Shown: positions 39,123-58,975 of the stretch, piece by piece
How the letters are laid out: each line of letters begins with the position of its first letter
How positions within the stretch are numbered: position 1 is the first letter of the stretch
Source of the DNA: Clostridia bacterium UC5.1-1E11
GTDB taxonomy: Bacteria > Bacillota > Clostridia > Oscillospirales > Acutalibacteraceae
Direction of reading: 5' to 3'
DNA: 64,000 nucleotides
Assembly (NCBI GenBank): GCA_001305115.1
Contig: BCAA01000011.1
Coordinates: 1-64,000 of the forward strand
Made by a program: the position numbers and the translations under genes
Notes under the pieces: model-generated
What the model was told of the DNA's origin: nothing
The model's input: only the letters and a program-made list of their open reading frames with translations
Database searches by the model: none

Positions 39123-40421
39123 ATGAGACAAGATATGATTGTAGTTTTGGATCTGGGTAGTACACGAAATACCGATGTTGCACGGGCAATTCGTGCACTG
39201 GGGGTATACAGCGAAATTTGTAATTACGATGTAACCATAGAAGAGATTTATAAGTTGCCGAATGTGAAGGGCATTGTTGCAAATGGCGGTCCAAATGATG
39301 TGGTAGACGGTGAAAAGATTGGACTTTCCGAAGCGATTGTAAAATCTGGTCTACCCATTTATACATTTGATTATGAATGGAATGGAATCCTAAATCCGAT
39401 GCCAGAAGAAGATCAAGCCATTCAAGAAGCTTTACGTGACTTTGTTTTTAATACTTGCAAAGCCCAAGCCAATTGGAACATGGATAATTTCATCGCTGAC
39501 CAAATTGATCTAATTCGCCAGCAGGTGGGGAATAAAAAAGTATTATTAGCATTGTCCGGCGGTGTTGATTCGTCTGTAGTTGCGGCGCTCTTGTTAAAAG
39601 CAATTGGTAGTCAATTGACTTGCGTGCATGTCAATCACGGCCTTTTGCGGAAAGGAGAGCCGGAGCAAGTTGTTCGTGTATTTCAGGACGAATTGTCAGC
39701 CAACTTGATCTATGTAGATGCAACCGATCGTTTTTTGGGGAAGCTGGAAGGAGTGGCCGATCCAGAGCAGAAGAGAAAAATTATTGGAGCAGAATTTATT
39801 CGTGTCTTTGAAGAAGAGGCTCGTAAGCTGGATGGTATAGAGTTCCTTGCACAAGGAACGATTTATCCGGACATCGTGGAAAGCGGCACAAAGACTGCTA
39901 AAATGGTTAAGAGTCATCACAATGTGGGCGGTTTGCCTGAGGATTTGCAGTTTGAGCTTGTAGAGCCACTTAAAATGTTGTTTAAAGATGAAGTTCGTGC
40001 CTGTGGGGTGGCGTTAGGATTGCCTGCTAGCATGGTATATCGGCAGCCGTTTCCAGGACCTGGATTAGGGGTGCGTTGTTTGGGGGCGATTACGCGCGAT
40101 CGCTTGGAGGCAGTACGCGAATCCGATGCCATCCTCCGGGAAGAATTTGCTAAAGCCGGTTTGGAGGGAAAAGTTTGGCAGTATTTTACAATTGTTCCGG
40201 ACTTTAAATCAGTGGGTGTACGCGATAATGCGCGTTGTTTTGATTGGCCAGTTATTATTCGTGCAGTAAATACCATTGATGCAATGACAGCACAAGTTCC
40301 GCAATTGGATTGGGCGTTGTTGCAGACGATTACTTCGCGTATTCTGCACGAGGTGAAAGGTGTAAATCGTGTTTGCGTTGATCTGTCGCCCAAACCAACG
40401 GCAACGATTGAGTGGGAGTAA
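39123..40421 (+). CDS. GMP synthase paralogue with degenerate, shortened glutaminase domain
   Basis: 432 aa. The C-terminal two-thirds align closely with GuaA: P-loop [45 protein letters not shown] and the C terminus KPTATIEWE. The N-terminal domain is only about 110 residues instead of about 200. Where the intact paralogue has [10 protein letters not shown] this one has GLPIYTFDYE, so the catalytic Cys is absent, and the His-Glu part of the triad is missing. It should therefore be unable to hydrolyse glutamine; it may use free ammonia or a separate glutaminase, or act on another nucleotide. No frameshift is involved: the frame is clean throughout. The 3' end is the attachment site of the mobile element that follows. 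Confidence 0.9.
   Translation: MRQDMIVVLDLGSTRNTDVARAIRALGVYSEICNYDVTIEEIYKLPNVKGIVANGGPNDVVDGEKIGLSEAIVKSGLPIYTFDYEWNGILNPMPEEDQAIQEALRDFVFNTCKAQANWNMDNFIADQIDLIRQQVGNKKVLLALSGGVDSSVVAALLLKAIGSQLTCVHVNHGLLRKGEPEQVVRVFQDELSANLIYVDATDRFLGKLEGVADPEQKRKIIGAEFIRVFEEEARKLDGIEFLAQGTIYPDIVESGTKTAKMVKSHHNVGGLPEDLQFELVEPLKMLFKDEVRACGVALGLPASMVYRQPFPGPGLGVRCLGAITRDRLEAVRESDAILREEFAKAGLEGKVWQYFTIVPDFKSVGVRDNARCFDWPVIIRAVNTIDAMTAQVPQLDWALLQTITSRILHEVKGVNRVCVDLSPKPTATIEWE
40410..40421 (+). other. Candidate attachment site copy 1 (3' end of guaA paralogue)
   Basis: GAGTGGGAGTAA spans the last codons and stop of the guaA paralogue. The 3' end of guaA is a known integration hotspot for genomic islands. Related 12-mers occur at 52228 (GAGTGGGAATGA) and 58964 (GAGTGGGAATAA). 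Confidence 0.7.
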
Positions 40422-42865: not shown

Positions 42866-43201
42866 ATGTCGCTGAAAAATCTTGACAATCACAACCGCTG
42901 GCGGAACAAAACGGTGGCCTTTCGGGTATCGCCGGAAGAGGACGAGCAGTTGGAAGCCTTTGTGAAGATGTCCGGCCTTACCAAACAGGACTATATCACC
43001 CGGCGGCTCCTGTGCCGGGATGTGGTGGTACAGGGAAATCCGAGGGTGTATAAGGCGCTCAGAGATCAGTTCGCCACTGTGTTGGACGAGTTGCGGCGGA
43101 TCGAGGCCGGGGCTGGCGTGGAGGACGAACTGCTGGACACGATCTACTTTATCGCAGAAATTATGGATGGAATGAGGGAGGACAATGCCTATGGCGAATG
43201 A
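42866..43201 (+). CDS. MobC-like relaxosome accessory protein
   Basis: 111 aa. NRWRNKTVAFRVSPEEDEQL is a ribbon-helix-helix N terminus of the MobC/relaxosome type, followed by SGLTKQDYITRRLL and a helical C terminus. It is expected to bind oriT beside the relaxase. It starts 3 bases after int and its end overlaps the repA start, so it belongs to the int operon. A broken copy is at 59833. Confidence 0.85.
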   Translation: MSLKNLDNHNRWRNKTVAFRVSPEEDEQLEAFVKMSGLTKQDYITRRLLCRDVVVQGNPRVYKALRDQFATVLDELRRIEAGAGVEDELLDTIYFIAEIMDGMREDNAYGE

Positions 43202-44348
43202 AGCAAAAGAAAAGACTGCCCTTACAACATCTGTTGGCGCAGATGAAAGGCAGTCCATTCAAAAATCCACTGTGAATAGTATACCCACTTCGGAGCGGGA
43301 AATCAATGAGGAAATTGAAAATTCCGAGCAATCTCTGGAAGAAATGTACCGCAGGATGCAGCGTATGACCGACCCGCAGTATCTGCACACAGTCTCCATG
43401 ACCGAGCTGTACCAGACCACTTACAGGAGCAGGCCCCCAATCATCGAGGGGCTGCTCCATGCTGGGGCATATATCCTTGCTGGCGCTCCTAAAATCGGAA
43501 AATCCTTTCTGGTGGCGCAGATCGCCTACCATGTCAGTACAGGTAGGAAATTATGGGAGTACGAAGTGCATCAGGGAACTGTGTTGTATCTCGCCCTCGA
43601 AGATGATTTCCAGCGCATCCAGAGCCGGATGTTCAGGATGTATGGCGTGGAAGATACATCCGATCTCCACTTTGCAACGGCGGCTGGGAAGGTTGGAAAC
43701 GGTTTGGATGAACAGCTTGCCAATTTTATGCGGGAGCACCCGGACACCAAACTCATCATCATCGACACCATGCAGAAAATTCGGGAGACCGGCGGCGAAG
43801 CGTACAGCTATGCCAGCGACTACGAGATTATCGGGAAACTGAAGGCGTTTGCAGACAGATACGGTATCTGTGTGCTGACTGTTCACCACACCCGAAAGCA
43901 GCCCGCCGGAGACGCTTTTGAAATGATCTCCGGCACCACGGGGCTGCTGGGCTGCGCCGATGGCTCTCTGCTGATGCAGAAGAAAAAACGGACGGCGCTG
44001 GAAGCAACCATTGATGTGGTGGGGCGGGATCAGCAAGACCAGATTCTCTATCTGAAAAAAGACCCTGAAACACAGATTTGGGAATTGGAGCGCATGGAAA
44101 ACGAGCTTCACAAAGAACCGCCTGACCCGATTTTGGAAGCCGTGGCAAAGCTGGTAACGGAGCCGTGGTGCGGAAGCCCCACGGAGTTGGCAACGGCGCT
44201 CCAAGCCGGTATGCAGCCCAACACTCTGACCAAACACCTGAATGTAAACGCCGGGAGGCTGTTTGAGGAATATGGCGTTCAGTATGAAAACGCCAGAAAT
44301 CACGCCGGAAGGAAGATCACGCTGACCCATGTTTCGGAGAAAGCGTGA
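43191..44348 (+). CDS. RepA-like AAA ATPase (AAA_25 type)
   Basis: About 385 aa from ATG 43191; ATG 43185 is also possible. Walker A is AGAPKIGKSFLVAQ, Walker B is KLIIIDTMQKI, and VLTVHHTRKQ follows as in the RepA/DnaB-like hexameric helicases of mobilizable plasmids and elements. The C-terminal region has a winged-helix look (NTLTKHLNVNAGRLFEEYGV). It may unwind the element for replication after transfer. It overlaps MobC. Its stop codon lies inside the first GTGACG iteron. Broken relatives are at 52958 and 60151. Confidence 0.88.
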   Translation: MANEAKEKTALTTSVGADERQSIQKSTVNSIPTSEREINEEIENSEQSLEEMYRRMQRMTDPQYLHTVSMTELYQTTYRSRPPIIEGLLHAGAYILAGAPKIGKSFLVAQIAYHVSTGRKLWEYEVHQGTVLYLALEDDFQRIQSRMFRMYGVEDTSDLHFATAAGKVGNGLDEQLANFMREHPDTKLIIIDTMQKIRETGGEAYSYASDYEIIGKLKAFADRYGICVLTVHHTRKQPAGDAFEMISGTTGLLGCADGSLLMQKKKRTALEATIDVVGRDQQDQILYLKKDPETQIWELERMENELHKEPPDPILEAVAKLVTEPWCGSPTELATALQAGMQPNTLTKHLNVNAGRLFEEYGVQYENARNHAGRKITLTHVSEKA

Positions 44349-44434: not shown

Positions 44435-44689
44435 ATGAAAAATGTGCAAATCCCCTATGACCTGTTCGTGGATCTGGTGTTGTATCATCTGAACGGCGAG
44501 GAAGATTTTGAAGAGGACATCCGGCGGGGACTGGAGCAAAAGCTGGACGCCATGCTGAGCCGCTAGCTCTATTCGCAATACAAAACCGCACCCACCGGGG
44601 AACAGCGGGAACAGGCGAGGAAGGCGTATCTTGACCGCCGGGGCGTACCCGAAAGCTACCGCTGGACTACCTCTCCCTGGGAGCGATAA
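44435..44689 (+). pseudogene. Small element protein interrupted by an in-frame amber codon
   Basis: The ATG at 44435 has GGAAAGGA about 10 bases upstream. MKNVQIPYDLFVDLVLYHLNG and the continuation to LDAMLSR read as a small acidic element protein, but TAG at 44564 stops it after 43 aa. The same frame remains open for 40 more codons (LYSQYKTAPTGEQREQARKA and on to SPWER) to a TAA at 44687, and the downstream part has clear protein-like composition. I read this as one ~84-aa gene with a nonsense change (GAG to TAG), not a frameshift. Function unknown; similar small genes are common between repA and the relaxase in Firmicutes elements. Confidence 0.65.
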
Positions 44690-45050
44690 CAGGAGCGTGC
44701 CACGCTCCTGTGGCTGGCAGACAAAGCAGAAAGGTTTGTCTGCGCTCCCCACGCAGCTCCCGTCCCCATCGAAAAATCCGCAGATTTTGAGATGGATGTG
44801 GGCGGAAGATTGCGAGCAAATACGATTTGCGAACAAGCTGCTGTCCACGCTGTTTTTGCGGATTGTGGCTACACCAGCAAGCCGCAAAAATAGCAGAGGC
44901 ATCCGCAGATGCCGCATACCCCCTCGGAGAGCCCACGATACTTTGCAGCCGCAGGATGAAAGTATCATAGTGGGTTATTACACTTCCGCAGAAGTGTTCC
45001 CCGAAACGCTACCCCGTACCACTGACGAAAATTACAGGAGGAAAATGCCT
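44690..45050 (+). other. Transfer-origin region upstream of the relaxase
   Basis: The frame is open through here in phase with the relaxase but its composition is not protein-like and the relaxase has its own ribosome site, so I treat this as non-coding. It holds an 11-bp hairpin (ACAGGAGCGTG / CACGCTCCTGT, about 44689-44712) and the oriT-like sequence at 44957-44997. Confidence 0.6.
44957..44997 (+). other. oriT: Candidate oriT of MobV type
   Basis: AAGTATCATAGTGGG followed by TTATTACACTT resembles the pMV158-type MobV nick region (TAGTGTG/TTATACTT). A 7-bp hairpin ACACTTC-CGCA-GAAGTGT follows. It is 60-90 bases upstream of a MobV-like relaxase. The predicted nick is near 44974/44975. Confidence 0.6.
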
Positions 45051-46315
45051 ATGGCAAGAGGCGATGGTGTTCACCGTACCAGCGCAAGAAATATGAGAAT
45101 GACAACCGACAAAGTAATGAACGCTCAGGCTCACAATGAGCGGGAAAAAGAGAGCTATGTCAATCAGGATATTGTGCCGGAAAGACAGTGCATGAATGTC
45201 CATTTCAAAACACCGGCAGGCAGCTACACCGCCATGTTCGATCAGATGGTGGCAGACGGCATAATTTCTACCCGTGGTCTGAAAGCCGATGCGGAAAAGT
45301 TCGGCGAACTGATTTTTGATGTCAATTCCGCTTATTTCTACAACCACGGCGGTTATGATTTCGCAAAACAATTTTACCATGACGCCTACCAGAGCGCAAT
45401 TAAAATCGTGGGTGGCGAGCAGTATATCCTGTCGGCAGTCATGCACGCCGATGAACGCAACCGGGCCATGTCCGAGGCGTTGGGGCGGGATGTGTACCAC
45501 TACCACCTTCATGTGGTCTATGTCCCGGTAGTGGAGAAGGAAATCCGCTGGTCAAAACGCTGCAAGGACAAATCGCTGGTAGGAACAGTCAAGGAGCGTA
45601 TCATGCAGGTCAGCATGAGTAAAAAATGGGCATCCAAACCGGCGCAGGACGATGATGGGCAGGTGCTGCGCTCCAAGTCCGGTAAGCCGGTTCTGAAAAA
45701 ATCCTATTCGGTGTTGCAGGACGATTTTTTCCACCACATGAAGGCTGCCGGATATACCGATGTGGAACGGGGCGAGCGTAGGAGTTCGGAGGAACACCTG
45801 ACCGTCACCCAGTTCAAGGTGGAACGGGAACAGGAGCGCCTTGCCTGTCTCACCGAGCAGACCCAGCAGAAAGCAGCAGAAGCGGCAGCTTGGATAAGAA
45901 AATTGAAGAGATCAAGCAGAAGAAGGTGGACATCGAGAGCATTGACAAAATTGAAGCCAAGCCTGTCATGCTTTCCGCATCAAGGGTATCTATTGAAAAG
46001 TCAGAGTACGAAACGCTGGCTACTGCCGCCAAGAAATACTATGCTCAGGAGAAGCGAGAATCCAAGCTGCAAAAGGCGTTGGGTGCCGCCCACAAGCTGA
46101 TTGGTGAGTTGAGAGCACAGGTGGCTACTTTGATCGCTGAGCTGTCCAAGTACAAGTCCGTCCGCAGCAAGCTGAACTCAGTTGGCTTGGAGCATGAAAA
46201 TGAGGAATTGCGAAGGAAAGTCCAGCAATACGAAAGCGTGATTGACAGACAAAATCTGTGGCATTTATTCGGCACAGGGCGTGTGAAAACCCATTCAAGG
46301 GATGATGCTCGCTGA
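45051..46315 (+). CDS. MobV/Pre-type relaxase (plasmid recombination enzyme), one frameshift
   Basis: About 422 aa if restored, from the ATG at 45051, 9 bases after AGGAGG. ARGDGVHRTSARNMRM at the N terminus and the metal-binding histidine cluster YHYHLHVVYVP mark a Mob_Pre relaxase. The frame slips at TT 45890-45891 (TTT needed); afterwards LDKKIEEIKQKKVDIESIDK begins a long coiled-coil tail to VKTHSRDDAR. It would nick oriT and lead the strand during mobilisation. No type IV secretion genes are present in the window, so transfer needs a helper element. Confidence 0.87.
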
Positions 46316-46769: not shown

Positions 46770-46808
46770 CGCCGCCCGTGGGAGAAATCCTGCGGGCGGC
46801 GTTTTTTA
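46770..46808 (+). terminator. Terminator between mobility genes and defence cargo
   Basis: 9-bp GC stem CGCCGCCCG / CGGGCGGCG with a 14-base loop, then TTTTTT. It separates the transfer functions from the restriction cassette. Confidence 0.9.
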
Positions 46809-46839: not shown

Positions 46840-46868
46840 TTGAGCTATGAATCCAAATGTGCTATACT
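46840..46868 (+). promoter_or_regulatory. Promoter of the restriction-modification cassette
   Basis: TTGAGC, 17-base spacer, TGC-TATACT (extended -10). Two copies of ATTCAGC follow at about 46877 and 46899, a possible binding site for the small regulator. Confidence 0.65.
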
Positions 46869-46942
46869 ATCCTTAAATTCAGCGAGCGCAGAATTATATT
46901 CAGCAATCCCGGTGCGTGAGATTTGCTAATGGAGTGGAGAAG

Positions 46943-47155
46943 ATGGCTGTTAGTTATAAGAAACTGTGGAAACTGTTGATCGACAAAGACATGAAGAAAA
47001 AAGACCTGTGTGCCGCTGCCGGAATCAGTCATGCTTCCATGGCAAAACTCGGCAAAAACGAGAATGTTACAACTGATGTGCTGGTGAAAATCTGTACCGC
47101 ACTGCAATGCGATATTGGCGATATTATGGAATTGACTCCTGAAAATTCCAAGTAA
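46943..47155 (+). CDS. Small Xre-type regulator (controller-like) of the RM cassette
   Basis: 70 aa, a single HTH of Cro/CI type: YKKLWKLLIDKDMKKKDLCA, recognition helix near ISHASMAKLGKN, and the end LVKICTALQCDIGDIMEL. It lies 15 bases before the methyltransferase, in the position of a C (controller) protein. C proteins time methylase before endonuclease expression. Whether it acts this way is inferred only from position and size. Confidence 0.8.
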   Translation: MAVSYKKLWKLLIDKDMKKKDLCAAAGISHASMAKLGKNENVTTDVLVKICTALQCDIGDIMELTPENSK

Positions 47156-47170
47156 AAGGAGGCGAGTACA

Positions 47171-49066
47171 TTGGCAGAACAAGTAGTTAAAAAATTAGCA
47201 TCTGTTCAAGCCAAGCCCGTTTTGAAATGGGCTGGTGGAAAGACACAGATGTTAGGTGATCTGTTACCCAAAGTACCAGCCTCTTATGGTCGGTATATTG
47301 AACCGTTCTTTGGGGGCGGTGCGATGTTCTTTGCATTGCAGCCGGAGAACGCAATTATTGCAGACAGCAATCCTGAACTTATCAATATGTATCGGCAAAT
47401 TGCCAATCATGTTGAAAATGTTATTTATTATTTGAGAACATACGAAAACACTTCGGAAATGTTCTATGCGGTTCGAGAAATGGACTGGACAAAACTGCCT
47501 CAGGCAGAAGCCGCTGCAAGAACGATCTTTCTGAATAGGACTTGCTTTAATGGCTTGTATCGTGTCAATAAACAAGGCCAGTTTAATGTTCCTTACGGAA
47601 AATATAAAAATCCTAAAATTTGTGATGAAGATGGTCTGAGAGCAGCCTCAAAAGCCTTGCAGAAGGCTGACATCATTTGCGGCGATTATCTTTTGGTTCT
47701 GGAACATTATGCTCAGGCCGGAGATTTTATCTTCCTTGACCCTCCCTATCTGCCAATCTCTGAGTATGCTGATTTCAAGCGGTACACAAAGGAACAGTTT
47801 TACGAAGAAGATCATATTGAGCTTGCCAAGATGGTTATGACCTTACACGAAAGTGGTTGCCATATCATCTTGACAAACTCAAACCACCCGCTGGTACATG
47901 AACTGTATACACCATTTACGATTGATGTTATTCAGACCAAACGCCATATTTCCTGCAATGGCAGCACTCGGAAAGGCGAAGATGTCATTGTTACGATTCC
48001 TCCGAAGCAGCGCACTTTGATTAAGTTGCTCCCACAACCATTACCCAAACAGGTTGCAGCATATCCTCCCACTCGCTTTATGGGGTCTAAGAGCAAACTG
48101 CTCTCTGAAATATGGTCTGTGGCATCACAGTTTGATGTAAATACCGTTGTTGACCTTTTCTCTGGCTCTGGCATTGTTGGTTATATGTTCAAAGCGCAGG
48201 GCAAGGCAGTAGTCAGCAATGACTATATGGCGATGTCTGCCACATTTACAAAGGCAATGATTGAGAACAACTTGGTCACACTGCCAATGGATGAGGCTAA
48301 AGAATTACTTGTTGCTCATAAGGAATCCGATCATTTTGTAGCTTCAACTTTCAAAGACCTTTATTATACGGATGAAGAAAATGATTTGATCGACACCTTG
48401 CGTACAAATGTCGCTGCAATCCGGGATCAATACAAGCACGCCATCGCAATGACTGCGCTGATTCGTGCTTGCACCAAAAAGCGTCCTCGTGGTATTTTTA
48501 CCTACACCGGACAGAGATATAATGATGGTCGCAAGGATTTACAGAAAACGCTTGCACAGCAGTTTTTGGAGGCTGTCGAAGCTGTCAACATGGCCGTCTT
48601 TGACAATGGAAAAATCAATCGCTCTAAGCATGGCGATGCAATGGATTTGAGAGTGGAACAGGCAGATTTGGTATACATCGACCCCCCGTATTATTCGCCG
48701 CTCTCTGATAATGAGTATGTCCGTAGATACCATTTTGTAGAAGGACTTGCCCGTGACTGGAAAGGCGTAGAGATTCAGGAGCATACGCAGACGAAAAAAT
48801 TCAAGTCTTATCCCACGCCATTCTCTACCAGAAAAGGTGCAGCAGATGCGTTTGATCGTCTGTTCAAGAAGTTTGCAAGCAGCATCCTCATTGTGTCCTA
48901 TTCCTCAAACAGCTTGCCTACACAGGATGAAATGGTAGCGATCATGGCTAAATATAAATCTCATGTAGAGGTTATACCTGTAGATTACAAATATTCCTTT
49001 GGTAATCAGAATGAGGCAAAAACCCACAGGAATACCGTACAGGAATACCTTTTTGTTGGATATTGA
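47171..49066 (+). CDS. Fused double D12-class adenine DNA methyltransferase
   Basis: 631 aa from a TTG start 8 bases after AGGAGG. The first domain (residues ~10-275) is Dam-like: KPVLKWAGGKTQMLGDLLP, EPFFGGG and the catalytic DPPY. The second (~295-631) repeats the order: RFMGSKSKLLSEI, DLFSGSGIVGY and DPPY in YIDPPYYSPL. Two D12 MTases in one chain are known for type IIS systems with asymmetric sites (M.FokI), each half modifying one strand. It is followed after 14 bases by an AlwI-like endonuclease, so it protects the host at that enzyme's site. Confidence 0.92.
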   Translation: MAEQVVKKLASVQAKPVLKWAGGKTQMLGDLLPKVPASYGRYIEPFFGGGAMFFALQPENAIIADSNPELINMYRQIANHVENVIYYLRTYENTSEMFYAVREMDWTKLPQAEAAARTIFLNRTCFNGLYRVNKQGQFNVPYGKYKNPKICDEDGLRAASKALQKADIICGDYLLVLEHYAQAGDFIFLDPPYLPISEYADFKRYTKEQFYEEDHIELAKMVMTLHESGCHIILTNSNHPLVHELYTPFTIDVIQTKRHISCNGSTRKGEDVIVTIPPKQRTLIKLLPQPLPKQVAAYPPTRFMGSKSKLLSEIWSVASQFDVNTVVDLFSGSGIVGYMFKAQGKAVVSNDYMAMSATFTKAMIENNLVTLPMDEAKELLVAHKESDHFVASTFKDLYYTDEENDLIDTLRTNVAAIRDQYKHAIAMTALIRACTKKRPRGIFTYTGQRYNDGRKDLQKTLAQQFLEAVEAVNMAVFDNGKINRSKHGDAMDLRVEQADLVYIDPPYYSPLSDNEYVRRYHFVEGLARDWKGVEIQEHTQTKKFKSYPTPFSTRKGAADAFDRLFKKFASSILIVSYSSNSLPTQDEMVAIMAKYKSHVEVIPVDYKYSFGNQNEAKTHRNTVQEYLFVGY

Positions 49067-49080
49067 TAGGGGGCTTTCGT

Positions 49081-51093
49081 ATGAGCGAACAAATCAAAAT
49101 ATGGCTGGTGGGCAATACTGGCCTGCGTAATCCCAATCGAATCCAAGAAGGATTTTCTGTATTTGCCAACTCTGCATTTGTTGGGCATCTTCATGGCCGT
49201 GATAACGAACTTGGATTTATGAATCTGCTTGATGAAAAGGGCATTATTCAAAACGAAGAGGGCAAGGACAGCTCCGGCAGTCATGCTCGTAAATGGCGGT
49301 TGATGTTTGCGAAAAACGGTCTGATTTATCCTCAGGTTCAGAAAAAAGATGGTCGTCAAGAAGATTTAGGCCCACTTGACGATATTACACCTTTTGGCAG
49401 GTCGTTCTTAAAAGCGGACACATATCCAGCAATGCAAGAATGCTTTTTACGGGCGATGAGCGTGGAGCAATTTCCTATGCCGGATGGCGTGCATTACTTC
49501 TCTCCGCTGAGATGGCTCTTGGCAATTATGCTGGAACTTGAAAAGCGGACTGGTTCATCTGAGCTTAGTCGAATCGAATTTGCCCTTTGGGGTCATACCA
49601 CAAATCCCAGCTATAGCTTGGAAGAAGTGGTTGACAACATTCTTGATTTGCGAAAGCGTAGAGCTACAGCTCCGGCGAAGCGCCCGTTTGACAAAAAGGA
49701 GATTGCCAAACGAGGTGAAAATTACGACAAAAAGCCAGATAATTTCTTGGATTACAGCGATATGAATATGAGATACCTCCGCATTTCTGGTGTGCTTCAA
49801 CGCAAAGGCAGAGGTCTAATAATCGTACCCGCAAAGCATGTCTTGGCAGAAAAACTTGCAAAGTCCACCGCAAGCGCAAAACCTCTTATGGAACAGTACA
49901 GACTGCTCTGCGCTGGTGCGCCTCTGCCAACGGACAGTGTGGATGTCGCCAAATCCCTGTTGGATGATCTGGTCAAACAGATGAAAGAGCGCCATATTCT
50001 CTTTGACATCACCGATCTGCCTCTGAATACTCCTGCAGAAATCAATATCGCACGGCAGAGACTTGAAAATATCCTCTCCCAGACAGACGAAATTCAGTAT
50101 GCCAGCGAACAGTGCAACCAGTGGGAAGAAATCAGAGATTATATGACTCTGCTGATAAAGGGCGGCGGAAAGTTAGTCTATGACGAAGATAACGCCATAG
50201 AGGTTCCCAAGGATGAAACTCCCGCCTACCTCGAATGGACACTCTGGCGTGCGGCCTTAGCGATTGATCACATGGTTAATAAGCCGTATGAAGTGCGTGG
50301 ATTCAAACTGGATTCTGACTTTATGCCTGTTTCGGCTGCTGGCGGTGGCAAAGGCGATCTGTATTGCGAATTTAACGATTTTACCATTTTGACAGAGGTT
50401 ACTATGTCCACATCCTCCCGTCAAGAAGCGATGGAGGGGGAGCCTGTCAGACGGCATGTTTCCGATGCTGTTCTGAAATACGATAAGCCTGTATATGGTA
50501 TGTTTATTGCTGTTCGGATAGATACCAACACAGCAGAAACATTTAGACACGGCATTTGGTATGCAAAGGGTGATGTCAAGCAACGACTGGATATTGTGCC
50601 GCTGACACTGGGCCAGTTTCAGAAATACTTTGTGGCAATGTTTGAGGCGGACAAGGCAACTCCAGAAAAGCTCAGAGATTTGATTGTAAAATGCGAATCC
50701 CGGAGAGATGTTTTGGAGGCTCCAGCTTGGAAGCAGTATATTGACTCCACTGTTGCCCAAAAGTCGCTTGAAATCACCAATGGAATTGTTGCCCACAGTG
50801 GCTCCGAAGCACCTCTTGTTCCGGCTGGGGCCATTGTGCGCCATGTAGCATTTGGAGAGGGACAAGTTGTTGCGCTTGAGGCCAATTTTCCTGAATGTCC
50901 TGCCAAAACGGTTGAAGTGCCATATCTGCGATCGTTACCCGATGAGGTGAGTTTCTGCCCTGATGGCAAAAGTCTGCTGCATGATCGGTTTGGTGAGGGT
51001 ACAGTTTATGCGTATGTCATTGTGTTCCAGAAAGTTATTATGAGATTGTCATACCCGGCTGCGTTTACAGACGGCTTACTTTCTATAGAATAA
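49081..51093 (+). CDS. AlwI-family type IIS restriction endonuclease
   Basis: 670 aa from the ATG at 49081 (AGGGGG 9 bases upstream). KIWLVGNTGLRNPNRIQEGF at the N terminus and the C-terminal nuclease block TILTEVTMSTSSRQ (near residue 435), followed by EGEPVRRHV, fit the AlwI/MlyI/N.BstNBI group, which recognise short asymmetric sites and cut outside them. The last ~90 residues add two copies of an H-x-x-FGEG-x-V motif (VRHVAFGEGQVV and LLHDRFGEGTVY), reminiscent of UvrD-type Tudor-like tails and not expected in the core family. Partner methylase is directly upstream. The recognition site is not known; GGATC- or GAGTC-like sites are guesses from the family. Confidence 0.85.
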   Translation: MSEQIKIWLVGNTGLRNPNRIQEGFSVFANSAFVGHLHGRDNELGFMNLLDEKGIIQNEEGKDSSGSHARKWRLMFAKNGLIYPQVQKKDGRQEDLGPLDDITPFGRSFLKADTYPAMQECFLRAMSVEQFPMPDGVHYFSPLRWLLAIMLELEKRTGSSELSRIEFALWGHTTNPSYSLEEVVDNILDLRKRRATAPAKRPFDKKEIAKRGENYDKKPDNFLDYSDMNMRYLRISGVLQRKGRGLIIVPAKHVLAEKLAKSTASAKPLMEQYRLLCAGAPLPTDSVDVAKSLLDDLVKQMKERHILFDITDLPLNTPAEINIARQRLENILSQTDEIQYASEQCNQWEEIRDYMTLLIKGGGKLVYDEDNAIEVPKDETPAYLEWTLWRAALAIDHMVNKPYEVRGFKLDSDFMPVSAAGGGKGDLYCEFNDFTILTEVTMSTSSRQEAMEGEPVRRHVSDAVLKYDKPVYGMFIAVRIDTNTAETFRHGIWYAKGDVKQRLDIVPLTLGQFQKYFVAMFEADKATPEKLRDLIVKCESRRDVLEAPAWKQYIDSTVAQKSLEITNGIVAHSGSEAPLVPAGAIVRHVAFGEGQVVALEANFPECPAKTVEVPYLRSLPDEVSFCPDGKSLLHDRFGEGTVYAYVIVFQKVIMRLSYPAAFTDGLLSIE

Positions 51094-51120
51094 GCCGAAG
51101 TTTACCATGCCACTAAAGAA

Positions 51121-51987
51121 ATGAGGCGAAATAATATCAGTACACTTTCATTCATAGAAAAACAAATAATCTGTCGGTTGTTTGGAATATCTGGTGGGTA
51201 TATCTTCAAGTTTTGGAGCGATAGAGGTACTTACAACAAAAATACTACGCATCAACTGATTCTTGACTCTTGCGGTATAGATATTTACAAAGATAAACCA
51301 TATAAAGATTTATCGCAGCAAAAATGTGTAGAGAAAATTTGGAGCGATTGTAACCCACAAATTGTTGCTAAGCTTTTGCGCTCATTGTCTGAATACTTTT
51401 GTTTCGCAATGGGAACTGATTATTGGAGCGATGAAGATAGTTATGACTATCGGCAGGTTGAAGATATAATTAAACGGCTCCAATCAACATCGGAAGTTTC
51501 TTTACCGGCACAAGAATCTACAGATCTAAAACTAATATTAAGTGACATAGAGTCAAATGTCCAAGCAGGAAAGCCTGAATTGGTCATAGATCGGCTCCAT
51601 ACATTTGCGACTAAGTATATACGAGAAATCTGCCAGAAACACGAAATTGCTATTGCTGACGAAAAAGGCGATCATTATTCGCTTGATTCTCTTGTTGCCA
51701 AACTAAAAGGATGGTATGAACGAGAGAATTACTTTGAATCCGAATTTTGTGTGGTAGCAATAAGGAATACCATCAATATCTTCACCAAATACAATGATTT
51801 AAGAAATAGTAAAAGTGCTGCTCATCCTAATCAACTTTTGCAAAAGGCAGAAGCCGAGTATGCGATTAAGGTAATTGCAGACACACTCATGTTTATTGAT
51901 AACATAGAGAAGAGCAAGGCAGTCGAAACAATTCCTTGGGGAAAAGGTGAATTGTTCGTGGACCCGGACAGCGAAGTCCCATTTTAG
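51121..51987 (+). CDS. Abi_C-like abortive-infection family protein
   Basis: 288 aa. The C-terminal half (about 150-275) resembles the Abi_C domain: a helix with YIREICQKHEI, then LDSLVAKLKGW, VAIRNTINIFTKYNDLRNSK and SAAHPN, the last being the usual R-N-x(n)-HG/AH type motif. The N-terminal ~110 residues (IEKQIICRLFGISGGYIFKF, RLFGIS-helical) are not recognised. No membrane helix. It is 27 bases after the endonuclease and is the last gene before the right end of element 1, so it is part of the defence cargo. The Abi_C assignment is moderate; the activity is unknown. Confidence 0.68.
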   Translation: MRRNNISTLSFIEKQIICRLFGISGGYIFKFWSDRGTYNKNTTHQLILDSCGIDIYKDKPYKDLSQQKCVEKIWSDCNPQIVAKLLRSLSEYFCFAMGTDYWSDEDSYDYRQVEDIIKRLQSTSEVSLPAQESTDLKLILSDIESNVQAGKPELVIDRLHTFATKYIREICQKHEIAIADEKGDHYSLDSLVAKLKGWYERENYFESEFCVVAIRNTINIFTKYNDLRNSKSAAHPNQLLQKAEAEYAIKVIADTLMFIDNIEKSKAVETIPWGKGELFVDPDSEVPF

Positions 51988-52227: not shown

Positions 52228-52239
52228 GAGTGGGAATGA
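52228..52239 (+). other. Candidate attachment site copy 2 (junction of elements 1 and 2)
   Basis: GAGTGGGAATGA, 10 of 12 identical to the guaA-end copy at 40410. An inverted repeat (CCGAATCAAATCCT / AGGATTTCATTCGG, about 52181-52226) lies just before it. Confidence 0.6.
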
Positions 52240-52356
52240 CGCTTGAAACGGCGCAAACCCGCATGAATACAGGCTTTTTTGCCCGTCCACAAGGCTCTTG
52301 ATACTGGATTAATACTATTCGTGTCCCGGTACTCTCAAGAGAATAATCCCAAAAGG

Positions 52357-52422
52357 ACAAGCAAAACCGCCCTGCTGAATTTGTCGTTCAGCAGGGCGGT
52401 TTTGCTTGTCTTATTTGTTTTT
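52357..52422 (-). terminator. Long perfect terminator, left end of element 2
   Basis: A 23-bp perfect stem (ACAAGCAAAACCGCCCTGCTGAA and its complement) with a 7-base loop, flanked by T-rich sequence. It occupies the place of the 40592 hairpin in element 1 and ends the leftward Xre relic. Confidence 0.85.
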
Positions 52423-52860
52423 CCGCCACGGGACATAGTATTGGCTTTCCCTGCCATCATCACAGGTATGGGGCCAGTTGAGTTTCCATTCAAAGTATTC
52501 GTCCCGGGTGATCTCCCCGGCGTACAATTCCTGCTGGCGCAAGAGCCATTCGTGCATGAACTCGTCTAAAAGCCCGTAGTTGAAGTAAATGCCCACAGGA
52601 GGTTGTGCGGGCCAGTCGTAACTGTCGTTATACTGGACAACGGTTTCCTCTTTGATTTTGCCGGGGACACGGACAAGCGGAAACAGGCGGATAGCGCTAG
52701 GACTGTTCTCATCTAGCCAGAAGAATGTCCGCATGAAGTCCTCGGCGGAGCCGGGGATATGGTGTAGAAATTCTGGTGGTCTACCCGCAATCTTGTCTAG
52801 AAACTCCCGTTTGGAGACATGGCATTCGTCTCATACTGCGCAATCCTGTTGTCAGCTCCC
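52411..52860 (-). pseudogene. Xre-type regulator relic of element 2
   Basis: The leftward frame from about 52734 (MRTFFWLDENSPSAIRLFPL) ends in LYAGEITRDEYFEWKLNWP, the same C-terminal pattern as the intact Xre at 40635. Upstream it can be followed through one slip (PKREFLDKIAGRPPEFLHHI) to RIAQYETNA, the HTH recognition region. The N-terminal half of the HTH is absent: the sequence passes directly into the repA relic, so a deletion removed the Xre start, xis, int and mobC. Confidence 0.7.
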
Positions 52861-52957
52861 TTTTCCTCAAAGCCGATAGCAAGCCCCAAGAACGGGATTT
52901 TGAGGAAATGGGCAGATAAGTCGGGCCACTGCCCCGGCTTATCTGCCCACTTTCTCC

Positions 52958-53907
52958 ATGAATGAACTCTACGAAAAGGTCTATCCCGGCAAGCCGCCTG
53001 TGATAGAGGGCCTACTCTATCCGGAGGTGTACCTCTTTGTGGACACTCCCAAGGTGGGTAAGTCCTTCCTCATGGCCCAACTCGGCTATCATGTGAGCAT
53101 GGGCCTCCCCCTGTGGGGGTATGCCGTAAACCGTGGGGCCGTCCTCTATCTGGCTTTAGAGGATGACCACCGCCGGTTGCAAAGCCGTCTTTATCAAGTG
53201 TTCGGGGAAAACAGCGTCGCAACCCCCCACTTCGTATTTACGCCAAGCAGTTAAACTATGGACTAGAAAGGCAACTAAAGAGGTTTATCCGGGAACACCC
53301 GGCTCATTATCATCGACACCCTGCAAAAAATCTGGGAGGCCGGGGCCGAGAAGTACAGTTATACAAGCGATTATGAAGTGATAACCCGTCTGAAACACTT
53401 TGCCGATGGAACGGGGGGCTGCCTCCTGCTGGTACACCATACCCGCAAGCAGCAGGCGACGACAAATTTGATATGATCTCCGGCACCAATGGTCTGATGG
53501 GTGCGGCAGACGGGGCCTTTCTGCTCCAAAAGGAGCGGCGGACGGACAGTGCAGCCAAACTGGACATTTCCGGGCGTGACCTGCAAGACCAGCGCCCTCT
53601 ATCTGAAACGGGACAGGGAGCGGCTTGTGTGGGAGTTGGAGCGGCGGGAAACGGAACTGCACAAGGAGCCGCCCGACCCGGTTTAGAGGCCGTGGCCGTT
53701 CTGGCGACGGTGGAGTGGCCCAAATGGAGTGGTACGGCCGCCGACCTTGCTGTCGCCCTGGAGAGGAAGATGAAAGCCAATGCCTTGGCTATGCGGCTGA
53801 ATGTCCGGGCAGAGCGGCTGTCCTATGAGTACCCTATCCGCTACAAGGACGACCGCACCCACGTTGGGCGGAGTATCTTCCTCACGTTGGAAACGCATTG
53901 GATGTGA
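52958..53907 (+). pseudogene. RepA-like ATPase relic of element 2
   Basis: MNELYEKVYPGKPPVIEGLL matches the region just before Walker A of the intact repA at 43191, and VDTPKVGKSFLMAQL is the Walker A itself. At least three breaks follow (about 53250, 53300, 53460 and 53590); the pieces together cover ALEDDHRR, PAHYHRHPAKNLGG-type shifted sequence, ISGTNGLMGAADGAF and the C-terminal NALAMRLNVRAERLSYEYPI to the stop. The N-terminal ~85 residues are missing. This is genuine decay: deletions are present as well as slips. Confidence 0.78.
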
Positions 53908-53927
53908 CGACTGTGACGGCCGTGACG
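53904..53927 (+). repeat. GTGACG iterons of element 2
   Basis: GTGACG at 53904, 53913 and 53922, 9-base period, overlapping the repA relic's stop exactly as in element 1. The inverted arm is not recognisable. Confidence 0.75.
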
Positions 53928-54289
53928 GGGAACGCGGGGTGAACGTCAAGGGGGCATACCTGCGGGTGGAGATTGCCGCAAGGGCAATACAGTCCGTACC
54001 CCTTGACTTTCCCCCTACGGAGAACACTTGCCGGGTGAGTGGAAAGACTGCTGACCTTTCCCCCCTGCCCAACGGCGAGTGACAAGGTTTAGGCGGGGAC
54101 AGGGTGCTCTTTTCAAAGGCAGCCCTGCTGGGGAGCCGTCCGTAGACGGCGGGGCAAAGCCCCCTATACCACCCCATAGGGCACAAATGCGCTTTTGATG
54201 GCCGATAGGCTGTCAAAAGTGCTTTTGCGTTTACTTTCGCGAAAGTAACACAGGCCCGCCGCTGGCGCGGCGGTAAAAGGAGGGCTTGA
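53928..54289 (+). other. Putative transfer-origin region of element 2
   Basis: No gene. It holds a palindrome TTACTTTCGCGAAAGTAA (54231-54248), a 10-bp hairpin GCGCTTTTGA / TCAAAAGTGC (54189-54222) and GCCGTC-CGTA-GACGGC near 54128-54143. Its position before a relaxase suggests oriT; it is unlike the element 1 oriT. Confidence 0.5.
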
Positions 54290-55393
54290 TTGAAAAGGAC
54301 GATCAGTGCTATGGTGGGACGGGGCTCAGTCAATCCCAACAGCAGGAAACTTTACGCCAAGAATACCGCCCAGGAGTGTTCCCACCTGGATATAACCTAC
54401 TGTGAGGAAAATATCAAGGCAGTGTACCATGAACTCTTTGACGAGGCTTTGGAGCGACACAACGCCAAGCAGATCAGGGCAGACCGCAAGATTGAGGACT
54501 ACTACGAGAAGATACGCTCTGGCAAACAGGAAAAGCCGTTCCATGAGATCATCCTGCAAGTGGGTAACAAGGGCAATATGAGTGCCGACAGCGACGAGAA
54601 GCGGCTTGCGGCGGTGCTGGACGAGTACATGAGGGGCTTTCAGGAGCGCAACCCAAGCCTCCAGGTGTTCTTGGCCTTCCTCCACATGGACGAGTCCATC
54701 CCCCATATGGACATTGACTTTATTCCATTCATTACTGGGAGTAAGCAGGGCTGGACACAAAGGTATCTTTGAAGCAAGCGTTAGCGGTCCGAGGTTTCAA
54801 GGGTGGTACCAGAGAAAACATAGAGTGGAGCCAGTGGGTACGCTCGGAGAAAGAGAGGCTTTCCGTCGTGATGGAGTGCCACGGGATAGAGTGGGGGACA
54901 AAGGCACCCACGACAAGCACCTGTCTGTGCTGGACTAAAAAAGGAGCAAAGGGCGAAAGGGGTTGGCGATCTGGAAACGGTCAAGGTGAAGAAAGAGAGC
55001 CAGATGGAGGAATAGGGGTGGCGGCTGAAAGAATTGGCCCCGGTGGTAAAGAACATGGAATGTCTGGTGGCGGACTTTTCTGTAGACCCGGAGGAAATTT
55101 TACCAGAGGCCGGGACATTGGAAAGTGCCAAGTCTTACCGGGAGAAAAAGGCAAAGTTCCTGCTGGCAAAAATCGTCCAAGAGTTGCGCTCTCTGTACCA
55201 CAAGTACATCGAACTGAAAGGAAAGTTTGACCGGAGACTATGACCGGGTACGGGAGGACAACGCTCGCCTGTCTGAACACTTGATGGAAGTAAAAATGGA
55301 AACAAAGCCCTGCGGCAGATCTCCGCCGACTATGAGCGGATCTTTGGTCCAGAACAGGTAGCGGCGGTGGAGGCCGACAAACAACGGGAATAG
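54290..55393 (+). pseudogene. Relaxase (plasmid recombination enzyme) relic of element 2
   Basis: The first 150 residues read well: KRTISAMVGRGSVNPNSRKL, EDYYEKIRSGKQEKPFHEII and the metal-site region FLAFLHMDESIPHMDIDFIP. The frame then breaks at 54755 (GGCTGG where GGCTTGG is expected) and resumes as LKQALAVRGFKGGTRENIEW. It breaks again near 54895 and several more times before the coiled-coil tail ends at TAG 55391. This relaxase belongs to a different subfamily from the one in element 1. The several breaks and a short deletion make real decay more likely than sequencing error. Confidence 0.75.
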
Positions 55394-55725
55394 GCGGAGA
55401 AAGGCCACAAGCGGTCCCGGAGCTCTCTTGGCCGGGGAGAGCGGTGAAATATAGATTTGTTTACATTGTATGATGATTTCAAAGATGAAAAGTGACCAGT
55501 GCAAGAATAATTTATCAGTGTATGTAGTGACGAAAGTATACTTGACAAAATTATTCGGTTATAGTAAGCTAATTACAATTTGGCGATGTAGCGTATCTAC
55601 ATGAACCGAGCAAAAAGGCTGAACAAACAAATTGCAGATGATGTTACCGCGTACGGTTTCATCGAAAGGCAGTTGTTGTGTTCCCTGTTTTGTCCGGTTC
55701 TTTTTTGTTTTTGGGAGGAGTTTCA
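55394..55725 (+). promoter_or_regulatory. Leader of the GNAT-MATE-GNAT cargo
   Basis: A promoter TTGACA-N17-TAAGCT lies at 55542-55570. The 155-base leader has hairpins ATGTAG-CGTAT-CTACAT (55586-55602) and ACCG-CGTA-CGGT near 55648. Such leaders can carry attenuation control of resistance genes; none is demonstrated here. Confidence 0.5.
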
Positions 55726-56372
55726 ATGAACAAAATTACTTATCGGCCATACGTACCGCAAGATTTCAAAGCTCTCTCTGATATTATTAATATCACATGG
55801 GGACATGAAAAATCTTATAGTCCTACCACTGCAGTCCGGCTATCCAACGCTTATCTGCGGTTATGCCTGATAGAACAAACCTTTACTCAGGTAGCCTTAA
55901 ACAATGGGAAACCCATAGGGATCATTATGGGGAACAGTTTTCACACCCCCCATAAATCCTTGAAGTATCGGTTACAGGCAAGATGGGCTTTATGGATGCT
56001 TTCGCTGACGGCGGAGGGACGCAGAGCATGGCATTTTTTGAGGAGGTGGATCAGATTTATGAAAAGTTGCTGTCCGGGCAGTCACAGGACTATGAAGGGG
56101 AACTATCCTTTTTTGCCATACACCCGCTTTATCGCGGGTTAGGGATCGGTAAGGAATTATACCGCCGCTTCTTCAACTATATGAACAACGAAAACATTCG
56201 GCATTTCTATGTGTTTACAGACACCACTTGCAATTTTGGTTTTTATGAACGCCAGAATATGCTCCGGTGTGGTACGGAAGAAGTAAAATTACAGGTTAAC
56301 AAAAAGCCGGAAAAATTTTTATTTTTTATCTATGAAAATGCGGTGCAGAAGCATAGCGCAGAAAATAAATAA
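55726..56372 (+). CDS. GNAT-family acetyltransferase, one frameshift
   Basis: About 215 aa if restored. The ATG at 55726 follows GGGAGGAG. NKITYRPYVPQDFKALSDII is the N terminus; the frame slips near 55980 (GCAAGATGG, one A short) and continues as MGFMDAFADGGG... to ELSFFAIHPLYRGLGIGKEL, the acetyl-CoA-binding motif A, and FYERQNM. Substrate unknown. It is followed by a MATE-type pump and another GNAT, suggesting a small detoxification or resistance cargo on element 2. Confidence 0.75.
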
Positions 56373-56404
56373 GACAGAAAATATACGAAAATTTGTTATG
56401 GGGT

Positions 56405-57795
56405 GATAAAAAAGCAAATTTAGTTATCCGATCACTTTACATATAAGCGCTTATTATGTTTTGTCATTTCACCGATTTTGATGATTGTATGCGGTTCCTT
56501 GTTATAGTACCGTGGACGGCTTTTTGTATTAATTTTGTTGGTAAAACGCCATTTACCGCACTCAATCTGATGATGCCTGTCATAATGGCAATCGGCACGC
56601 TTGGTTTTATGATTGGAACAGGCGGAAGTACCGTCGCTTCGATTAATTTAGGAGAGAAAAATCCTGAACGGACGAACCAGTATTTTTCTTTTCTGCTCTA
56701 TGTTGCGGCGGGAGCCGGTATTGTATTATCGTTCCTCGGCTTTCTTTTTTGTACGGTCCATTTCGATTTTCAGGGGGGCAGATCATGAACTGTTAAAGGA
56801 TTGTATCTTAAATATGGACGGATTTTGTTCATTGGGCAGACGGTGTTTATTTTGCAGAATGTTTTTCAAAGCCTTCTGATCACAGCGGAAAAACCTGTGC
56901 TCAGTTTGAAAATTTCGGTTGCCGCCGGTCTTACCAATGTTATATTCGACTTTCTCTTTATCATTGTTTTTCACTGGGGATTGTCCGGCGAGGCGGTTGC
57001 TACCGTAATGGGGCAGTTTGTTGGCGGTATCCTTCCGCTCATTTACTTTTTAAGATCCAATACCAGCCTGCTTTGGTTGACGAAAACCGCTTTTTATGGG
57101 AAAACGCTTCTCCAAACCTGCATAAACGGTTCATCTGAAATGGTGACAAATTTGTCCGCTTCGATTGTCCGTATTCTTTTTAACGTTCAACTTATGCGGA
57201 CTGCCGGAGAAAATGGCGTTGCCGCGTGTGGTAGCATTATGTATGTCAATTTTGTTTTCATGGGGGGATTTGTCGGATATTCGTTAGGGGGCGCCCCGAT
57301 CATCAGTTACCATTTTGGCGCGGAAAACCATGCGGAACTTAAAAACCTGTTTCGCAAAAGTATTGCTCTGATGTGCGGAGCCGGAATCATATTGACTATG
57401 ATTGCTGAATTGCTTGCGGAACCTCGGATCATGATATTTGCAAGTTATGATGTGGAACTGTTCAATACGACCCGCCACGGATTTGTAATATACTCGCTGG
57501 TGTTTCTGCTCATGGGGTTCAATGTATGGGCTTCTGCTTTTTTACAGCGTTGAACAATGGCCTGATTTCTGCGACAATTTCTTCTTTGAGAACGCTTGTA
57601 TTTCAGATTGTCCTGATATTCACACTTCCCGCCTTGTTGGAGATTGATGGAATTTGGCTCTCTGTTGTATTGGTGGAAGTCTTGTCCTTGGTTGTGACAA
57701 TCAGTTTCTCTGTGACAAAGAGGAAAAATATCAATATGCGTAAAACCTTAAAACAAAATTTGAATTTATACAGCAACAGTTTTGAATTTTTATAA
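56405..57795 (+). pseudogene. MATE-family efflux pump, several frameshifts
   Basis: The pieces give most of a MepA-like MATE protein of about 450 aa: NFVGKTPFTALNLMMPVIMA and FMIGTGGSTVASINLGEKNP (N-terminal half); RILFIGQTVFILQNVFQSLL, GLSGEAVATVMGQFVGGI and GYSLGGAPIISYHFGAENHA (middle); and TALNNGLISATISSLRTL (C-terminal). At least four single-base breaks are needed (start region, ~56490, ~56770-56810, ~57541), most in T or A runs. Because identical slips hit essential genes here, it is unclear whether the pump is dead or the sequence is wrong. It would export cationic drugs by Na+ or H+ exchange. Confidence 0.72.
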
Positions 57796-57808
57796 GAGAG
57801 GAAATAAT

Positions 57809-58963: not shown

Positions 58964-58975
58964 GAGTGGGAATAA
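58964..58975 (+). other. Candidate attachment site copy 3 (junction of elements 2 and 3)
   Basis: GAGTGGGAATAA, 11 of 12 identical to the guaA-end copy at 40410, and followed by G-AAA as there. The sequence after it is homologous in layout to the left end of element 1 (CTGATTTACAG, terminator, leftward Xre). Confidence 0.65.

Follow-up and report, generated by a model that had tools for sequence, protein, structure and literature searches.

We analysed a window of 64,000 nucleotides (nt), the whole stretch from position 1 to 64,000 of contig BCAA01000011.1 of the gut-type Clostridia bacterium UC5.1-1E11, which contains an 11.8-kb mobilizable island in guaA that carries a set of four defence genes. 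The first three, encoding a small Xre regulator, a fused double adenine methylase and an AlwI-type nuclease, form a type IIS restriction-modification (RM) cassette, and the fourth, encoding an Abi_C protein, probably occupies an exchangeable position behind it. As laid out in a preliminary description of this DNA, the four genes are co-directional and follow a terminator (coordinates refer to the window):

46770..46801, + strand: strong intrinsic terminator ahead of the cassette, with a 14-pair stem (11 GC) followed by a T run
46840..46868, + strand: promoter of the cassette, TTGAGC-17-TATACT, its -10 element preceded by TG; close to where DNA similarity among relatives begins on the left
46878..46893, no strand assigned: operator-like palindrome TTCAGCGAGCGCAGAA, directly after the -10 element
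46943..47155, + strand: xre, Cro/C1-type regulator of 70 amino acids (aa) (HTH_26, 2.1e-22)
47171..49066, + strand: fused double D12 adenine methylase (two MethyltransfD12 stretches, 5.4e-87)
49081..51093, + strand: AlwI-type (type IIS) endonuclease, a relative of N.BspD6I (RE_AlwI, 4.1e-100)
50782..51093, + strand: C-terminal nuclease extension of ~100 aa with two HxxFGEGxV repeats, predicted to be all-beta
51121..51987, + strand: Abi_C gene, the variable partner (PF14355, 1.2e-6; 29 bits against a Pfam cut-off of 24)
51802..51825, + strand: codons of the RN-x5-H motif (RNSKSAAH; R228-N229-x5-H235)
51967..51984, + strand: codons of the acidic C-terminal tip DSEVPF, a look-alike of the SSB C-terminus (SSB-Ct)

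The xre product was previously described as controller-like, a designation borne out by the HTH_26 match and the operator-like palindrome: like a C protein, it appears to be a small helix-turn-helix protein that heads an operon with a palindromic putative operator at the promoter. The methylase has two complete D12 domains in one chain (separate models cover residues 13-270 and ~300-630) and matches one PADLOC type II methyltransferase model over nearly its full length (1180 bits). It had been labelled a FokI-type fused D12 pair; the N-terminal half is Dam/DpnII-like (2dpm, 1.2e-60), and therefore the label describes the fused layout and makes no statement on specificity.

The assignment of the third gene product to the AlwI-type type IIS nucleases was confirmed by the RE_AlwI profile, which covers residues 101-514 with 336 bits against a cut-off of 23.1, and by similarity to N.BspD6I in sequence (2.2e-18) and in a Foldseek search (3.7e-11) with a query model of low overall confidence (predicted local distance difference test, pLDDT, 56.5). 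An alternative TTG start is possible at 49063. AlwI recognises the asymmetric site GGATC and cuts beside it. In an alignment of the window nuclease with those of 25 of the 53 related loci described below (A2, which leaves out L032 and L035, with stops in the nuclease gene, L047, L069 and further loci not entered), D426, E439 and E452 are invariant in all 26 sequences; judging from spacing alone, we take these to be the equivalents of the catalytic residues of N.BspD6I. The C-terminal extension, with pLDDT of 76-91 per 10-residue block over residues 581-670, is missing from many relatives of the window nuclease. A Pfam scan of the extension gave no match, and the best Foldseek hint, the CdnL N-terminal domain, reached an E-value of only 0.67, so that no name could be assigned. 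The nucleases of L054, L056, L057 and L065 bear another short extension (FPYGIYFGSRVK...) after residue ~558-561, and therefore the nuclease C-terminus itself seems to be modular.

A scan of genome contigs with the window nuclease yielded 53 loci. By tblastn with the window proteins, the methylase is found in 49 of these (the four exceptions being contig ends or nuclease fragments) and an adjacent xre in 31, and Abi_C in none of the 53. No xre lies within 400 nt in 18 loci of a palindrome survey, two of which are explained by a contig end. Of 31 xre-bearing cassettes, the window counted in, 27 have a palindrome resembling TTCAGCGnnnGCTGAA after the -10 element; the four cassettes without it all have a partial xre match, and therefore the xre start is probably misplaced there. 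Half of the blastn comparisons with the window (12 of 24) extend 83-174 nt before the xre start, mostly 83-106 nt, and the ends in the latter range fall at a recurring TTGa-17-TATGcTATAc promoter; the other 12 stop closer to xre. On the opposite side, of 21 loci bearing the nuclease extension, 15 lose similarity to the window at points from 94 nt upstream to 36 nt downstream of the window's nuclease stop, whereas in the other six, with a diverged extension, and in most loci without the extension, similarity ends near codon 555; L060 has no alignment to the window around the nuclease end. Because DNA similarity ends at the promoter and near the nuclease stop, the recurring, albeit not invariable, unit as delimited by these comparisons consists of promoter, operator, xre, methylase and nuclease. 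The scans place the type IIS cassette mostly in Clostridia, on various elements. Phage phi1605 (L079) has a three-gene cassette with xre 73%, methylase 73% and nuclease 44% identical to those of the window, and an additional, second xre-like gene on the opposite strand. In L033, L041 and L048, the nearest open reading frame (ORF) upstream of the methylase matches type II methylase models; there is no xre match upstream of the methylase in L041 and L048 and a partial one in L033.

What follows the nuclease is highly variable. Forty-nine loci were usable downstream, with L039, L045, L072 and L073 set aside as having too little sequence or a nuclease fragment. In 27 of the 49, an annotated co-directional defence gene of one of 19 kinds lies directly behind the nuclease: AIPR/AbiU (five loci); an ImmA-HTH gene with a PIN-like gene (two loci); PHP-SMC/Ppl-like (two loci); Gabija-like OLD-TOPRIM with a UvrD-like gene; DolA+AAA (two loci, followed by Shedu in L028); PIN+AAA_15; a 429-aa protein with HerA; SIR2+HerA; Cap4/LmuA-like (Lamassu-like); PDC-M46A; GmrSD; GmrSD_N+HEPN; KAP/QatA; Thoeris (two loci); N6/N4 methylase with ParA-like and SIR2-like genes; YobI/Tmn; Mrr; DUF6602+CD-NTase; and CD-NTase. 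The partners of L023, L034, L036, L038, L042, L044, L046, L064 and L065, and likewise the second genes in L021, L027, L053 and L056, were assigned by blastp clusters or by eye; profile scans served for the other partners. A further six of the 49 loci have a recurring uncharacterised gene in this slot. In four of these it encodes a ~700-aa P-loop protein (L046:4703-6805, L055:12401-14506, L034:11790-12998 and L036), broken in L036 and cut by the contig end in L034; the L055 copy gave no PADLOC match and only sub-threshold Pfam matches, and the protein is a candidate for an unknown defence gene. In the other two, a 418-aa unknown protein is followed by a UvrD-like gene.

The partner changes even between close relatives on a tree of 52 nuclease sequences, in which 14 of the 49 inner branches have support of at least 95. 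Thus, L044 (AIPR) falls within a clade shared with L050 and L064 (Thoeris; support 100), L021 (ImmA) is paired with L024 (PHP-SMC) at support 100, and L042 (AIPR) with L066 (SIR2+HerA) at support 98; by path, the window nuclease is nearest to L025 (PHP-SMC) and L063. In the opposite case, L042, L044 and L058 have AIPR genes that are 69-77% alike in DNA but nucleases that lie apart on the tree. For 35 tips with 23 different labels, 26 partner changes are needed (the minimum is 22). In 17 pairs of loci, similarity continues more than 60 nt beyond the nuclease stop; 14 of these pairs have a common partner, and the pairs without one are L021-L022, L022-L023 and L060-L071. With closely related nucleases and unrelated partners, the position behind the nuclease is, on this comparison, an exchange slot. 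The gap between nuclease and partner does not exceed 150 nt in 28 of the 30 loci with a partner, the window included (27 nt to Abi_C), and, by a simple criterion, none of the 30 has a terminator-like structure in between.

As a control, 20 loci were drawn at random from the 35 with 1.5 kb or more of flanking sequence on each side, and the nearest ORF of at least 100 aa on each side of the cassette was scanned against PADLOC. At E<=1e-10, 13 of 20 downstream and 5 of 20 upstream neighbours matched (Fisher p=0.025). The five upstream matches are three methylases along with GajB and HerA, the latter two in Selenomonas loci without xre, where the partner has changed sides. With the three methylases left out, the counts become 13 and 2 (p=0.0008), and, at the tool's own threshold of E<=0.001, likewise without methylases, 13 and 4 (p=0.0095).

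The match of the last gene product to PF14355 lies over the curated cut-off, upholding its earlier description as Abi_C-like. Relatives of Abi_C are rare in the genomes searched, the window genome being counted in each case: 4 of 394 genomes of the order (window protein as query), 17 of 391 of the class (PF14355, 16 above cut-off) and 7 of 398 of the phylum (alignment A1 as query). Matches were also found in 72 plasmid records and one phage record, whereas viral contigs scanned with Abi_C, the nuclease, a plasmid Abi_C and a phage Abi_C gave no relatives. The neighbours of Abi_C were examined in 35 distinct contexts, including 16 of the 72 plasmid records; L116 and L123 are outside this set, having no Abi_C ORF (a fragment in L123 is 55% identical to the window Abi_C over 78 residues). 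In seven of the 35 contexts, an RM gene, of six kinds in all, directly adjoins Abi_C on the same strand (gaps at the end of each line):

window: AlwI type IIS, 27 nt
L074: MmeI-like, 10 nt
L099: type ISP, 22 nt
L105: BglII/BstYI nuclease and MT-A70, 15 nt
L111: type III, 278 nt
L115: type III, 0 nt
L139 (1058-7664): type I, with Abi_C between hsdM and hsdS, 5 and 6 nt

In one more context (L077/L100/L137), an Eco57I-type methylase and nuclease belong to the same gene run, with two hypothetical genes (~1.1 kb) in between, and the remaining 27 contexts have no adjoining RM gene. L099, L100 and L105 resemble one another in their plasmid backbone (resolvase, RM, Abi_C, further genes, ParA); Abi_C is retained in all three, while the RM is a different one in each. 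Two Abi_C relatives, in L124 and L126, lie within a few kb of a Cas9-looking gene (1085 and 1405 aa, respectively; recognised by eye from the N-terminal sequence).

These distributions bear on two alternative readings of the fourth gene. It is very unlikely that the four genes form a dedicated PrrC-like system, in which Abi_C would watch the AlwI-type enzyme and kill the cell upon its inhibition. Such a system would fit the direct adjacency with a 27-nt gap and has a precedent in PrrC-PrrI (PMC3710099; here and below, statements attributed to published papers draw on parts of their text), but the specific co-occurrence of the suicide gene with its RM, as in the PrrC case, is not seen among the 53 nuclease loci, and relatives of Abi_C adjoin other kinds of RM. 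Moreover, among the 394 genomes of the order, nuclease and Abi_C are both found at high similarity only in the window genome; genome G069 has a weak match to each, on separate contigs. Conversely, besides the window's own copies, no AlwI-type nuclease or methylase was found in any Abi_C locus examined. The preliminary description held that Abi_C occurring apart from the RM genes in most relatives would speak against its four-gene set, and this is what was observed: the absence of Abi_C from all 53 related nuclease loci rules out a single conserved system of four genes. What stands of the proposed RM system backed by an abortive-infection module is an RM operon followed by an Abi-type gene, and the broader idea of a second defence behind an RM system gains from the other defence modules in 27 of 49 relatives and from the other RM kinds that Abi_C adjoins.

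We also consider it rather unlikely that Abi_C is an independent abortive-infection or toxin gene that has a promoter of its own, responds to a separate trigger and is carried by the island as chance cargo. The 28 of 35 contexts without a directly adjoining RM gene and a promoter-like match upstream of Abi_C (51064-51091) point in this direction; however, the number of promoter-like matches in the region is near that expected by chance (16 found against a mean of 12.6 in shuffles), and there is no terminator-like structure between the nuclease and Abi_C.

Two features of the Abi_C sequence itself may hint at its function. First, R228, N229 and H235 are invariant in 16 of 16 aligned sequences, and RN-x5-H is present in 17 of 17 members of a separate alignment (one sequence is common to both sets); RX4-6H is the HEPN signature (PMC3710099). 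Among the 16 aligned members, PF05168 (HEPN) matches only two, at best with 0.077, and AbiJ_NTD5 matches two. Second, the window protein ends in DPDSEVPF, and the SSB of the same genome in IPSDDDLPF. Behind a linker that is hardly alignable, relatives of Abi_C end in WDETIPF, CEDIPF, WDESIPF, DDDVPF, DDEVPF, DDTFPF, EDDTPF or DEDPAPF. The acidic PF tip is found in 9 of 16 contexts in which Abi_C has a GYVL-type N-terminal motif (by a simple pattern, window included) and in none of the 19 others; L124, with a near-match to this motif (GYVWDFS), has no tip. Only 14 of 1195 different ORFs of at least 100 aa from the loci end in PF, 11 of these ends are acidic, and nine of the 11 belong to Abi_C, in a count whose ORF picking missed L100 and L105. 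The two others are a 527-aa ORF of L125 and the Shedu SduA of L028 (L028:14020-15279), which is located in the slot behind DolA and an AAA protein and ends in an acidic -EFPF tip. The tip of Escherichia coli SSB, DDDIPF, binds DnaG, PriA, exonuclease I, RecO and other proteins (PMC5872125).

Taken together, we consider it probable that the window holds a recurring type IIS cassette with an exchangeable second-defence gene or operon behind the nuclease, probably on one transcript, and that here this gene encodes an Abi_C/AbiJ-like HEPN protein, most likely a cell-stopping RNase. The support is sequence-based and comes from gene content, recurrence, similarity edges, partner variety, short gaps without terminator-like structures and the HEPN-type motif. 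Under this scenario, Xre would repress its own promoter via the palindrome, making the operon autoregulated; the methylase halves would each protect one strand of one asymmetric site, as in FokI and MhoVII, and the nuclease would cut unmodified phage DNA at the same site. The rear gene would be co-expressed with the RM genes and thus give a second, mechanistically different defence. In the window, the Abi_C product would be a toxic HEPN-type RNase, kept inactive in the absence of infection and set free when a phage escapes or poisons restriction; possibly, it would sense DNA metabolism via the SSB-like tip, tethered to SSB-binding proteins.

A somewhat unlikely alternative is passive clustering, whereby the RM cassette and Abi_C share an island, islands being full of defence genes, without any functional coupling. 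Several observations weigh against the coupled reading, and some of them favour passive clustering. No recognised partner was found behind the nuclease in 16 of the 49 usable loci (L022, L026, L029, L032, L035, L037, L049, L051, L052, L059, L060, L062, L063, L067, L070 and L071); four of these are from Selenomonadales, and L062 and L067 have a defence gene before the methylase instead. Neither do the more distant AlwI-type systems of pSM0227-02, phage phi1605 and pGS18 (46%, 44% and 37% identity) have a co-directional defence gene behind the nuclease. Upstream neighbours also match PADLOC, and the 1e-10 threshold was chosen after the matches were known; at 0.001, the counts are 13 and 7, and the downstream excess is not significant (p=0.11). 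Support is below 80 for 19 of the 49 inner branches of the nuclease tree, and the 26 partner changes were counted without a shuffled control. The single-sequence AlphaFold model of Abi_C is all-helical with pLDDT of 42.6, and searches of the PDB with Abi_C gave no credible relative. By strict adjacency, an RM gene adjoins Abi_C in 4 of 9 contexts with the tip and 3 of 26 without it (p=0.055). Finally, because defence genes cluster anyway, adjacency is no proof of cooperation. Passive clustering, in turn, does not readily account for the short same-strand gaps devoid of terminator-like structures, the similarity edge near the stop codon and the downstream excess at 1e-10, nor for the gaps of 0-22 nt to RM genes, of five kinds, in five of the six further Abi_C adjacencies. 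The exchangeable second-defence gene remains the preferred reading.

With regard to the tip, its link with an adjoining RM is only suggestive, because the above p=0.055 rises to 0.13 if the two plasmids with similar backbones are treated as a single context. Phage SSB acts as the trigger of several abortive systems (PMC10732053). In a bolder version, which we regard as distinctly doubtful, the Abi_C tip would be a true SSB-tip mimic that docks on SSB-binding proteins (RecO, PriA, primase, phage replication proteins), so that phage-DNA processing rather than nuclease failure would release the HEPN RNase, and at the same time the AlwI-type cassette would be a general carrier whose rear slot could serve as bait for unknown antiviral genes, such as that of the ~700-aa P-loop protein of L034, L046 and L055.

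Several known systems resemble the one described here. The AlwI-family type IIS RM systems (relatives of N.BspD6I/R.BspD6I) share the nuclease family and an adjoining fused two-domain adenine methylase, and the plasmid and phage relatives (nuclease 37-46%) also have a methylase, phage phi1605 also an xre; what sets the window system apart is the predicted C-terminal beta extension of the nuclease and, in common with most close relatives, the variable partner behind it. In FokI and MhoVII, as in the window, two methylase halves serving an asymmetric site are fused in one protein (M1-M2), one half per strand (PMC12898733), whereas in the window both halves are of the D12 type and the nuclease is AlwI-type. 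As appears to be the case in the window, a HEPN-type suicide protein is encoded behind an RM gene in PrrI-PrrC and in RM-associated HEPN/AbiJ operons (PMC3506569, PMC3710099). The coupling of immunity and suicide genes, with 'repeated toxin displacement', has been proposed (PMC3506569), and AbiJ solos within RM operons have been reported (PMC3710099); the RM-plus-toxin principle is thus already in print, having been proposed in 2012-2013 (PMC3506569, PMC3710099). The window system differs from these reports in that 19 annotated kinds of partner rotate behind one type IIS RM lineage. With the Abi_C/AbiJ family (PF14355), which we infer to be the AbiJ HEPN of PMC3710099, the window protein shares the Abi_C match and the RN-x5-H motif, and it differs in the acidic DSEVPF tip, similar tips being present in eight other contexts of the subfamily.

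A literature search, outside of which lay most subscription papers, turned up neither an AlwI-type cassette described as having rotating partners nor a report of an SSB-like tip on Abi_C. These two aspects, the constant-RM/variable-partner architecture and the tip, deserve follow-up. Should RM systems be coupled to a second defence as a rule, the many natural swaps within one RM lineage would amount to a ready-made experiment, in which the same first line of defence could be tested with different second lines in a single vector. For unannotated genes, presence in the slot is also a predictor of function, and with an SSB-like tip the obscure Abi_C/AbiJ family would have a concrete docking site that is cheap to test.

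The island that carries the cassette has the following further features:

40410..40421, + strand: left attachment (att)-like core GAGTGGGAGTAA, at the 3' end of guaA
41774..42862, + strand: tyrosine integrase (Phage_integrase, 3.2e-18; SAM-like and arm-binding domains)
43185..44348, + strand: AAA_25 ATPase (profile match, 2.4e-29)
44631..46100, + strand: Mob_Pre/MobV-type relaxase (5.5e-30; NCBIfam MobV score under its cut-off)
52228..52239, + strand: right att-like core GAGTGGGAATGA, the likely right end of the island, ~240 nt past the Abi_C stop

With an integrase, a relaxase and guaA-end repeats on both sides, the island can be classified, by its predicted content, as a guaA integrative mobilizable element, in agreement with the earlier claim of a mobilizable element. 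The gene set had also been said to end at the right att; the position of the core at 52228-52239 rules out an att at the Abi_C stop. The att-like sequence GAGTGGGARTRA occurs three times in the window (starting at 40410, 52228 and 58964, with 0.01 occurrences expected by chance), the third core spanning 58964-58975. This suggests two guaA islands in tandem, the second bounded by the cores at 52228 and 58964. The probable second island (52240-58975) has an AAA_25 gene at ~52.9-53.5 kb, ~50% identical to that of the first. Known guaA integrative mobilizable elements share the integrase, the relaxase and the insertion at the 3' end of guaA with the window island; the window differs in the tandem pair and in the cargo of RM cassette and Abi_C.

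Such a setting invites the explanation that RM and toxin act as addiction modules that keep the island in guaA, with phage defence being secondary. Post-segregational killing by type II RM systems is established, and the island with its integrase and relaxase, next to a second tandem island in guaA, would be a suitable beneficiary. We nevertheless regard such selfish stabilisation as quite unlikely, given that partners found in the slot elsewhere (Thoeris, Gabija-like, CD-NTase, QatA) are antiviral and not addiction modules.

The guaA gene of the window (39123-40421) encodes a 432-aa protein without the glutaminase motif GxCxGxQ, and the 350-aa guaA ORF of L020/L127 likewise has none, whereas the motif is present in guaA of L025, L034, L050, L055 and L058. 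Judging from the motif, the window guaA may encode an ammonia-dependent form of the enzyme.

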